This document shows positions 57,200 to 59,834 of a stretch of 64,000 nucleotides of DNA, piece by piece. This DNA comes from Nitrospina sp. (GTDB lineage Bacteria; Nitrospinota; Nitrospinia; Nitrospinales; JACRGP01). The stretch spans positions 1-64,000 of the forward strand of contig JACAVV010000016.1 of NCBI GenBank assembly GCA_024648695.1, given 5' to 3'. The first letter of the stretch is position 1, and each line of letters starts with the position of its first letter. Both the position numbers and the translations under genes were made by a program. Below the pieces are notes generated by a model, which saw only the letters and a list, made by a program, of their open reading frames with translations, made no database searches and was not told the origin of the DNA.

Positions 57200-57631
57200 T
57201 CAGGAAGAGGATGAGGTTTTTTGATTGGGTCTGGTTTCCACTGAGCCTCCAGTTCCGTCTCCCAGGATCTCATATATTTTAGCCTGAAATACATCCACAC
57301 TGAATGGTTTGATGAGGCAATGGATGATGCCCGCTTTTTTGGCTTCCAGGATCCTTTCCTTTTCGTTGGCATCGGTGATCAGGATGAAGGGAACCCCTTT
57401 CAGGTAATCCTTTTTTTGTAAAACCGAGAAAAACTCCAGGCCGTTCATGCCATCCATTTCCCAATCGGACAAAATGAGTTCCACCTTCTCCAGGACTAAC
57501 ATCCTTAAGGCACTTTCAGCATTTTCTGATTCTATAACCTGGGTAAACCCCATTTTTTGCAAGTGATACTTAACCAGGTCCATCGACTGATTCGGGTTTT
57601 GGACAACCAAAATTTTTTCTTCGTTTTCCAT
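57200..57631 (-). CDS. Receiver-domain protein with degenerate acidic pocket
   Basis: A 143-aa single receiver domain. The phospho-acceptor (Asp56, LILSDWEMDG), the Thr (Thr86, FILITDANE) and the Lys (Lys108, CLIKPF) are present, but the acidic pair that binds Mg2+ is replaced by Gln11-Asn12 in ILVVQNPNQS. Phosphorylation is therefore doubtful, and it may act as a constitutive or protein-binding pseudo-receiver. The ATG at 57631 was chosen over a longer reading. It lies 124 bases downstream of the receiver-LpxC fusion, in the same orientation. Confidence 0.85.
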   Translation of the reverse strand: MENEEKILVVQNPNQSMDLVKYHLQKMGFTQVIESENAESALRMLVLEKVELILSDWEMDGMNGLEFFSVLQKKDYLKGVPFILITDANEKERILEAKKAGIIHCLIKPFSVDVFQAKIYEILGDGTGGSVETRPNQKTSSSS

Positions 57632-57755
57632 AATTCGACACAGGTAATCTGTTATTAAAATTACTTTTACATGCAATTTTAAAATAAAATTTTTTAAAAA
57701 AAAAGGTCAAATATGAATTTTTTTTGAAAAAAAGTGGGAGGGTTTGGTTTGGAAA

Positions 57756-59834
57756 TCAGTCGAGATTCTTCTGGATCTCTTTGAGCAAACCAATATTTTG
57801 GGTGTGGCCCGATTTGTGGGCCTTCACAAAACCACGGATGGGTTTACCCAACAGAAACAGGTCGCCTATAATGTCGAGGATTTTGTGACGCACGAATTCG
57901 TTTTCGAATCGAAGAGGGGTGTTGAGTACTTTACCGTCGCCCAGGAGAATAAAATTGTCCAGCTTACCGCCGGTACCAAAACCCATGCGGGTCAAATGGG
58001 CGACGTCTTCGAGGAAACCAAAGGTACGGGCGGGAGCGATTTCATCTTTAAAGCTGTCCGACCCTTTGAATTCATAAGTAAAGTCCTGAACGCCAATGGG
58101 AGCAGGATACTCCATGTGATAACTCACTTTAAAATGGTCGCAAGGTTCAATGGAAATGAACGCTTTATCCTTCGAGCCAAAACTCAGGGGTTTGTCGATG
58201 ATGATCTCTTCATAGGGATCGCCCTGGTCTTCCAGTTCACCGTCTTCGATCAGCTGGCAAAAATCCTTGGCAGATCCATCCATCACCGGCGCTTCATCGC
58301 CGATTTTGATGAGCAGGTTGGTGATTCGATACATGTGCAGGGCCGCAAGAATATGTTCAATGGTTGCTACAGAGGAATTTCCCTTTCTCAAACAGGTCGA
58401 ATAGTCGGTGGATTGAATGTTTTCCAGTTTGGCGGGAATGGTATTGCCGCTGGAGATGTCCCCGAAAATGATACCGCTTCCCGGAGGTAGAGGTTGCAGG
58501 ATCAATCCGGTTTTTATTCCGGAGTGCAAACCGCTTCCGCATAAAACGACACTTCGTTTTAAGGTTCTTTGTGTCAGCGACCGTTTAACCGGGTTCGATG
58601 GTTCTACAGATTGGGAATCGCTTATAGTCACTTCAATGCTGGAACGACCGTTCGATCTTGCGTGTGGAGTTTTAAAAAAGGGCGGCAAATCCCGAACCGT
58701 GATTTGCTCTTTATGCGAGGCCGTTATCGCCAGCTTTTCCAATACCGACCTCAATTCCTTGATGTTTCCGGGCCAGGTATACTGGCATAAATATTTCATT
58801 GCTTCGAAATGGATCTCCGGGCATTGCGCGGGACCATTTTCCGCAAACTCCAGGAAATAGGTTTTGATTAAAGACGGTATATTCTCACTGTATTCCCTGA
58901 GCGGAGGAATTTTAATGGACGATTCCTGTAACTGTTCATACAGATCTTTATTGAACTGCCCTTTTTTGACTTTGCAAGCAAGGTCCTTGGAACTGGCACA
59001 AAACAGGCGCGATGGCAGAAACTCCAGCTTGCGGTCGGCTCTTTTCACTTCTTTTCCGGCCAGGGCCAAAGCCAGCTTTTCCTGAAGACTCTTGCTCAAG
59101 GCATCAATATTGGTTAAATAGACAACCTTATCGTCAATGGACTTGGCGCCGTTTGTTTTGGTTCCGTTGCTTTTGGCATGACCGTTCAATCCCTTGGGAA
59201 GCGGACGGAACAATTGTGCCTGAATACTGGGCATGGGGCGTACTGCACAATTCAATTTTAACCAGGGGCGGTTACTATATTTGCTTTGGCGGTGAATGGT
59301 TTGAACGATCAACTCTTTGCCGGTTCCCGGTTCACCCTGGACCAATATCGCATTGTTGTGCCTGGAAGCTGATTTGATGGCCTGCTTCAGTTCAACCAGT
59401 TTTTCAAAACAAAAGGGCAGTTCCGTTTTGCGAAACAGATCGCCTTCCCCCTGGACAGGTTGAATTTTCTTATGCTGAAGGGCGCTTTCCACCGAGTGGG
59501 TCAACTGCTCCAGCGAGAACGGTTTTTCAATAAAATCAGAAGCGCCTAATTTGGTGGCTTTCATGGCCGTTTCAATGGTGCCGTGACCGGACATGACCAC
59601 CACTTCAATGGCGGGATGATAGGTCTTGACGGTTTTCAGTACCTCAATGCCGTCCATTCCTGGAACCCAGATGTCCAGTAGCACCAAATCTGGAGGATCC
59701 GACTGAATGATCTCCAGGGCGTCCAGGCCGTCGTTGGTGGTCGCCACTTCGTATCCCTCGTCGGTCAATATGTCCTCCAGCGAGGTGAGAATATTGACCT
59801 CATCGTCTACGATCAAAACCCGTTCTTTGGTCAA
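57756..59834 (-). CDS. Receiver-AAA+ (NtrC-like)-LpxC fusion
   Basis: A 692-aa fusion. Residues 1-125 are a complete receiver (Asp10-Asp11, phospho-acceptor Asp54, Lys104). Residues about 140-375 are an NtrC-type AAA+ domain with Walker A GEPGTGKE (167-174) and YTWPGNIKELR. The GAFTGA sigma54 loop is missing (a Gly/Lys/Asn-rich insert at 211-225 lies there), and the Walker B Asp-Glu is replaced (VVYLTNIDA). No helix-turn-helix follows. Residues about 412-690 are a full UDP-3-O-acyl-GlcNAc deacetylase: Glu493-His494, Thr604-Phe605 region of PARTFGF, HKILDIIGD (His650, Asp654) and SGHTQN (His677). LpxC does the committed lipid A step, so phospho-relay control of LPS synthesis is suggested. Confidence 0.92.
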   Translation of the reverse strand: MTKERVLIVDDEVNILTSLEDILTDEGYEVATTNDGLDALEIIQSDPPDLVLLDIWVPGMDGIEVLKTVKTYHPAIEVVVMSGHGTIETAMKATKLGASDFIEKPFSLEQLTHSVESALQHKKIQPVQGEGDLFRKTELPFCFEKLVELKQAIKSASRHNNAILVQGEPGTGKELIVQTIHRQSKYSNRPWLKLNCAVRPMPSIQAQLFRPLPKGLNGHAKSNGTKTNGAKSIDDKVVYLTNIDALSKSLQEKLALALAGKEVKRADRKLEFLPSRLFCASSKDLACKVKKGQFNKDLYEQLQESSIKIPPLREYSENIPSLIKTYFLEFAENGPAQCPEIHFEAMKYLCQYTWPGNIKELRSVLEKLAITASHKEQITVRDLPPFFKTPHARSNGRSSIEVTISDSQSVEPSNPVKRSLTQRTLKRSVVLCGSGLHSGIKTGLILQPLPPGSGIIFGDISSGNTIPAKLENIQSTDYSTCLRKGNSSVATIEHILAALHMYRITNLLIKIGDEAPVMDGSAKDFCQLIEDGELEDQGDPYEEIIIDKPLSFGSKDKAFISIEPCDHFKVSYHMEYPAPIGVQDFTYEFKGSDSFKDEIAPARTFGFLEDVAHLTRMGFGTGGKLDNFILLGDGKVLNTPLRFENEFVRHKILDIIGDLFLLGKPIRGFVKAHKSGHTQNIGLLKEIQKNLD

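Follow-up and report, generated by a model that had tools for sequence, protein, structure and literature searches.

The window, i.e. the whole stretch of 64,000 nucleotides analysed here, carries on its minus strand one continuous frame (59834–57756) that codes for all 692 residues of a receiver-AAA+-LpxC protein. Pfam profiles matched Response_reg at residues 6–115 (110.7 bits), Sigma54_activat at 145–307 (84.6 bits), AAA_lid_14 at 313–394 (61.6 bits), and LpxC at 422–688 (276.5 bits). The gene, termed ntrX::lpxC, and its features are as follows.

57756–59834, minus strand: ntrX::lpxC, receiver-AAA+-LpxC fusion gene, 692 amino acids, TTG start, single open frame
59481–59822, minus strand: receiver domain of the NtrX clade, residues 5–118 (PF00072; acidic pair D10/D11, D54, S82, K104)
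59673–59675, minus strand: codon of D54, the phospho-acceptor of the receiver (from sequence and conservation among fusions)
58650–59402, minus strand: degenerate sigma54-type AAA+ domain with lid, residues 145–395 (PF00158, PF25601)
59313–59336, minus strand: intact Walker A/P-loop GEPGTGKE, residues 167–174 (GxxGxGK conservation)
59109–59126, minus strand: decayed Walker B, VVYLTN (residues 237–242), acids replaced by T241–N242 (from sequence)
58581–58649, minus strand: linker, residues 396–418, of low confidence and probably flexible (pLDDT <50 at 392–417); in relatives, the site of a Fis-type HTH_8, whole or as a remnant
57765–58580, minus strand: complete LpxC deacetylase domain, residues 419–690 (PF03331, 276.5 bits; TM-score 0.92–0.93 to Aquifex LpxC)
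58353–58358, minus strand: LpxC E493–H494, general base and zinc ligand (81 of 81 fusions)
57873–57887, minus strand: LpxC H650–K651–x–x–D654, H and D being zinc ligands (81 of 81 fusions)

Judged by fold, family match, and catalytic residues, the C-terminal part is a complete LpxC deacetylase. Its residues E493, H494, T604, H650, K651, D654, and H677 are all in place, the TIGR00325 score exceeded the cut-off alongside that of PF03331, and the TM-score to Aquifex LpxC given above was normalized by target length. The fusion was the only LpxC match in the window genome (Nitrospinota, 4.2 Mb, 97% complete); no second lpxC was found there, a check that an earlier note on this DNA had called for. 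That note had also described a complete receiver, a AAA+ domain with Walker A but devoid of the GAFTGA loop and the Walker B acids, a full set of zinc and catalytic residues in LpxC, and no DNA-binding domain, and the description held throughout. Specifically, the receiver possesses the acidic pair, the acceptor aspartate, S82, and K104, and the P-loop is intact. In the AAA+ domain of the window protein, no GAFTGA loop was found, the arginine-finger segment is altered, and T241–N242 occupy the places of the Walker B acids; the features that mark an NtrC-type sigma54 activator are thus missing. No Fis-type HTH or other DNA-binding domain was matched by Pfam in this protein.

The AlphaFold model of the window fusion comprises three confident domains (mean pLDDT 82.6), with linkers of low confidence at residues 128–139 and 392–417. 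Two fusion models showed such low-confidence tethers around folded domains, and their pTM values of 0.52 (window fusion) and 0.62 mean that domain packing and the receiver-LpxC interface are not fixed by the models. The best matches among full-length regulator structures were those of Brucella NtrX, including its ATP and ADP complexes.

A search for relatives, which the earlier note had suggested, returned many receiver-LpxC fusions from Nitrospinota, a second phylum, and about 13 further families. As LpxC-FabZ accounts for many frames of 430–470 amino acids elsewhere, true fusions were picked with a receiver-LpxC profile (A1), which was run over 383 genomes and scored fusions above 380 bits and ordinary LpxC below 275 bits. 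In Nitrospinota, all near-complete LpxC examined are receiver-fused, mostly as receiver-AAA-LpxC of 650–750 amino acids; three lineages of this phylum (families f8 and f6, and G028 within f2) have receiver-LpxC without the AAA+ domain. This shorter form was also found in every complete case examined in the second phylum (46 genomes, >20 families). Most fusions found with profile A1 in the further families outside Nitrospinota are again receiver-AAA-LpxC, and at least three named MAGs with receiver-LpxC are labelled Deltaproteobacteria, Thermoanaerobaculales, and Terriglobia. A frameshift or an assembly join near codon 400 was rejected as the origin of the gene, since the same continuous frame recurs in many independent genomes. 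One very divergent receiver-LpxC of the second phylum (L075:5404-6642, genome G100; branch length ~2.3) retains the acceptor aspartate and the LpxC catalytic residues; its function may differ.

When 74 LpxC domains were placed in a tree, all 47 from fusions fell into a single clade (support 100/99, present in 100% of bootstrap trees). The ntrX::lpxC fusion is ancient and spread over several phyla, and no local oddity. Among 81 fusions compared, D11 and D54 of the receiver and E493, H494, T604, H650, K651, D654, and H677 of LpxC were invariant, and the receiver residues S82 and K104 were kept in 80. The AAA+ domain was present in 41 of the 81, the window protein included; all 41 have the Walker A motif GxxGxGK and none has GAFTGA. 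Within the 29 AAA-bearing Nitrospinota sequences, 34% of the receiver columns and 35% of the LpxC columns were invariant compared to 6% in the AAA+ domain, where the 15 invariant positions include four P-loop residues. The receiver is therefore constrained like the enzyme, whereas the AAA+ domain drifts and keeps little beyond its nucleotide-binding loop. Mere chance persistence of a receiver that has no effect on LpxC can be given almost no credence in view of these figures; moreover, all 81 fusions compared still have the receiver, whereas the AAA+ domain was lost several times.

On the LpxC tree, the presence of the AAA+ domain requires at least five changes (gains or losses). The domain is hence dispensable, and the receiver is the conserved partner of LpxC. 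The earlier note had assigned to the AAA+ domain the part of an oligomerising relay, which is not necessary, as the domain is absent from the whole second phylum and from three separate Nitrospinota lineages; an essential motor or relay was rejected because of the repeated loss and the decayed Walker B. Where the domain is retained, the P-loop, invariant in all AAA-bearing fusions, indicates that it probably binds nucleotide. One fusion (L244:6205-8442) retains the Walker B acids (FLDE) without GAFTGA; its AAA+ domain is possibly an active ATPase and well suited to be compared with the decayed ones. Furthermore, two fusions (L255:6077-7375 and L256:6166-7482) have glutamine in place of the otherwise conserved histidine at the position of H437 of the window protein; both come from single-contig genomes of one family.

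Concerning the source of the regulator part, the earlier note had spoken of an NtrC-like response regulator. The regulator assignment stands, and a generic NtrC ancestor does not: in the receiver tree, fused receivers grouped together with operon-encoded NtrX (95/96), separate from the 22 NtrC-type paralogs that these genomes also encode. Unfused lpxC was found in lpxC-DUF4390-ntrY-ntrX clusters of Desulfobacteraceae, Rokuibacteriota, and other MAGs (L111, L158, and L103), and one further unfused cluster has the order lpxC-ntrY-ntrX (L121). The origin of the fusion is best explained by a gene cluster of the lpxC-(DUF4390)-ntrY-ntrX type. A Fis-type HTH_8 lies between AAA+ and LpxC in two fusions above the Pfam cut-off (L248 and L251) and in a third just under it (L014). 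Similarly, a fusion without AAA+ (L051) has retained an HTH_8 remnant just under the cut-off. As the NtrX HTH is still present in some fusions, a whole NtrX would have joined LpxC, with HTH and AAA+ decaying or disappearing afterwards; we infer this direction from domain homology. Two operon NtrX proteins (L111:10173-11522 and L158:10054-11415) have GALAAA and NSLPGT, respectively, instead of a normal GAFTGA, and their Walker B motifs are intact. The loss of sigma54 contact may accordingly predate the fusion.

In other bacteria, NtrX can work independently of classical sigma54 activation. This, together with the HTH_8 matches in L248 and L251 and those just under the cut-off in L014 and L051, would suit a bifunctional protein in which the NtrX half is still a transcription regulator, e.g. 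a repressor, and LpxC is merely co-translated. We consider such a protein very unlikely, because GAFTGA was found in none of the AAA-bearing fusions, the AAA+ domain was repeatedly lost, and neither the window protein nor the second phylum's fusions, which lack AAA+, gave an HTH match with Pfam.

In many fusion genomes the gene order is DUF4390-ntrY-[ntrX::lpxC]. An NtrY-like kinase with NtrY_N, HAMP, PAS, and HisKA domains is encoded directly upstream of the fusion at nine of 12 AAA-bearing loci in families outside Nitrospinota (gaps of −8 to 303 bp), and, behind DUF4390, in the Nitrospinota families f8 and f9 (gaps of −4, 61, and 73 bp). In family f6, one contig opens within a kinase fragment whose end lies just ahead of the fusion and which apparently represents an upstream NtrY. 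In Nitrospinales, the window genome included, ntrY is located beside DUF4390 and does not adjoin the fusion, and there is no adjacent ntrX. The ntrY ortholog of the window genome (C45:123710-125938) is full length, with 47% identity and 702 bits versus 139 bits for the next match. Among the receivers compared, no other one from genomes G000, G005, G070, G083, and G119 fell into the NtrX clade. Two genomes of the second phylum have likewise kept an NtrY-like kinase with no ntrX next to it, and in one of the two a DUF4390-like gene lies upstream (25 bits, just under the cut-off). Altogether, NtrY is strongly supported as the putative kinase partner of the fused receiver; in Nitrospinales, the proposed pairing is based on orthology and on there being no second NtrX among the compared receivers. 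Directly downstream of the fusion, the window encodes a lone CheY-like receiver (57200–57676, minus strand), in the place that PurN-LolA-M50 protease genes take in other Nitrospinota genera; it might interact with the same kinase.

As the earlier note had stated, pilus genes adjoin the fusion; they lie downstream of it in the window. Their proximity is incidental, and a functional tie was rejected, since other Nitrospinota genera have different neighbours there, namely PurN, LolA, and an M50 protease. Several lineages from different phyla have the genes for PurN, LolA, and a site-2-type protease of family M50 after the fusion (e.g. L061:3194-5880 and L250:3655-6105); at L255:5329-6087, LolA follows the fusion, only LolA having been tested at this locus. 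This PurN-LolA-M50 stretch constitutes an envelope-assembly neighbourhood. The gene directly upstream of receiver-LpxC is purA (adenylosuccinate synthetase) in a large part of the second phylum (e.g. L031:7666-8982 and L034:4157-5467). The LolA and M50 genes downstream of the fusion in several lineages, other Nitrospinota included, and the flexible appearance of the tethers would agree with a scaffold, in which the receiver mainly recruits LpxC to membrane-bound NtrY or to oligomers, near other envelope factors, and catalysis is unchanged. However, pure docking would not need the strict acidic pocket, phospho-acceptor Asp, Ser/Thr, and Lys that are kept in 80–81 of 81 fusions, and a scaffold is in our estimate improbable.

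We regard it as likely that an ancient NtrX-LpxC fusion is phosphorylated on its receiver by NtrY, acting with the DUF4390 protein, and that the cell's sole LpxC is thereby set directly. An intact receiver on the only LpxC, its deep conservation, and a strong candidate kinase are what direct phospho-control predicts; the gating of the deacetylase by receiver phosphorylation that the earlier note had proposed is supported in this part. In the proposed sequence of events, NtrY, a membrane histidine kinase on which the DUF4390 protein (PlrP) probably acts from the periplasm, would phosphorylate Asp54 of the receiver attached to LpxC. Phosphorylation would alter receiver docking or dimerisation, and the state of the receiver would set the activity, or the availability, of LpxC. 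The AAA+ domain would no longer be a sigma54 activator and, where kept and not lost as it repeatedly was, would serve at most as a nucleotide-binding scaffold. The phosphotransfer from NtrY to the receiver, the effect on LpxC, and the sign of this effect are all inferred.

Linker length and sequence vary widely among fusions, a variation that gives no indication of a single, rigid mode of coupling. Given seemingly flexible linkers of variable length, a CheB-like docking or dimerisation switch is likelier than a rigid relay. We therefore favour a CheB-like form and lean weakly toward an unphosphorylated receiver that would damp the tethered LpxC.

Instead of the turnover rate, the receiver might set the amount of LpxC, its phosphorylation deciding whether the fusion is handed over to a protease, much as in RssB or FtsH/LapB control, or shielded from it. 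The amount of LpxC is the classical control point in enterobacteria. Moreover, the fused LpxC extends only a few residues past its catalytic core (the Pfam match runs to residue 688 of 692); it apparently lacks a C-terminal degron of the E. coli type, which a different handle could have replaced. On the other hand, no degron or adaptor site was identified. Matches to the LapB zinc-ribbon family PF18073 say little about LapB, as they also occur in many control genomes and lie in frames of 442–491 amino acids that may be RadA. Control of the amount is conceivable but rather unlikely compared to the direct control of LpxC by the phosphorylated receiver.

Direct control would connect well with what has been described for unfused systems. 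The periplasmic partner PlrP, a DUF4390 protein, influences the balance between kinase and phosphatase activity in PlrS, an NtrY-type kinase (PMC13001219). In R. sphaeroides without NtrYX, lpxC mRNA was increased 8.8-fold and LPS about 2-fold, an indirect effect (PMC7240162). In D. vulgaris, lpxC is the single target of the response regulator DVU2934, and in S. fumaroxidans, lpxC lies beside the operon of a regulator orthologous to DVU2934 (PMC3333781). These reports make a link from NtrY over a receiver to LpxC natural, and the fusion would swap transcriptional for direct control.

In a wider sense, the committed enzyme of lipid A synthesis would itself serve as response regulator to the envelope sensor NtrY, LPS output would be set post-translationally, and the promoter machinery of NtrX would have been lost after the capture of what was possibly its own target gene, all of it a single ancient invention now found in several phyla. 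We hold this broader account to be reasonably probable. The domain and gene arrangements suggest that lipid A synthesis may be switched directly by a sensor kinase, and not only via gene expression or protein breakdown. A signalling input would be built into LpxC itself in several phyla, with an identifiable kinase. Because the output of NtrY would be one enzyme, there is a direct route to ask what NtrY senses. The fusion would also illustrate how a transcription factor can become an allosteric subunit of an enzyme whose gene it may once have targeted.

Known control of LpxC is by proteolysis or transcription. Enzymatic-output response regulators and transcriptional links between NtrYX and lpxC are already known, and LpxC as the output of a response regulator is seemingly undescribed: in the open-licence literature, we found no description of a fusion of LpxC to a receiver or response regulator, or of a response regulator with LpxC as output. 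In a 2025 review of lipid A regulation, two-component systems figure as transcriptional control, and the terms 'response regulator' and 'allosteric' are absent from the text (PMC12444477).

Compared to known systems, the fusion shares with NtrYX, including Bordetella PlrPSR, an NtrX-clade receiver, an NtrY-like kinase, and a DUF4390 gene adjoining ntrY. The output of NtrYX is transcription, whereas the regulator of the fusion is covalently attached to LpxC, no longer has GAFTGA, and has either lost its HTH or kept it in decayed form. DVU2934 of D. vulgaris is likewise a response regulator devoted to lpxC, but it is unfused and acts on the lpxC promoter (PMC3333781). The LpxC enzymes of Aquifex and Pseudomonas have the same complete fold and catalytic residues and are the only copy in the genome; the fusion differs from such ordinary LpxC by the N-terminal receiver with or without AAA+, by forming its own clade, and by having no evident C-terminal degron. 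In LpxC-FabZ, LpxC is fused to a C-terminal dehydratase, and unlike in the receiver fusion, there is no signalling input. CheB and PleD are response regulators with enzymatic outputs, in which, as in the fusion, a receiver is tethered to a catalytic domain. Their output is a signalling enzyme, whereas that of the fusion is an essential enzyme of outer-membrane biosynthesis.
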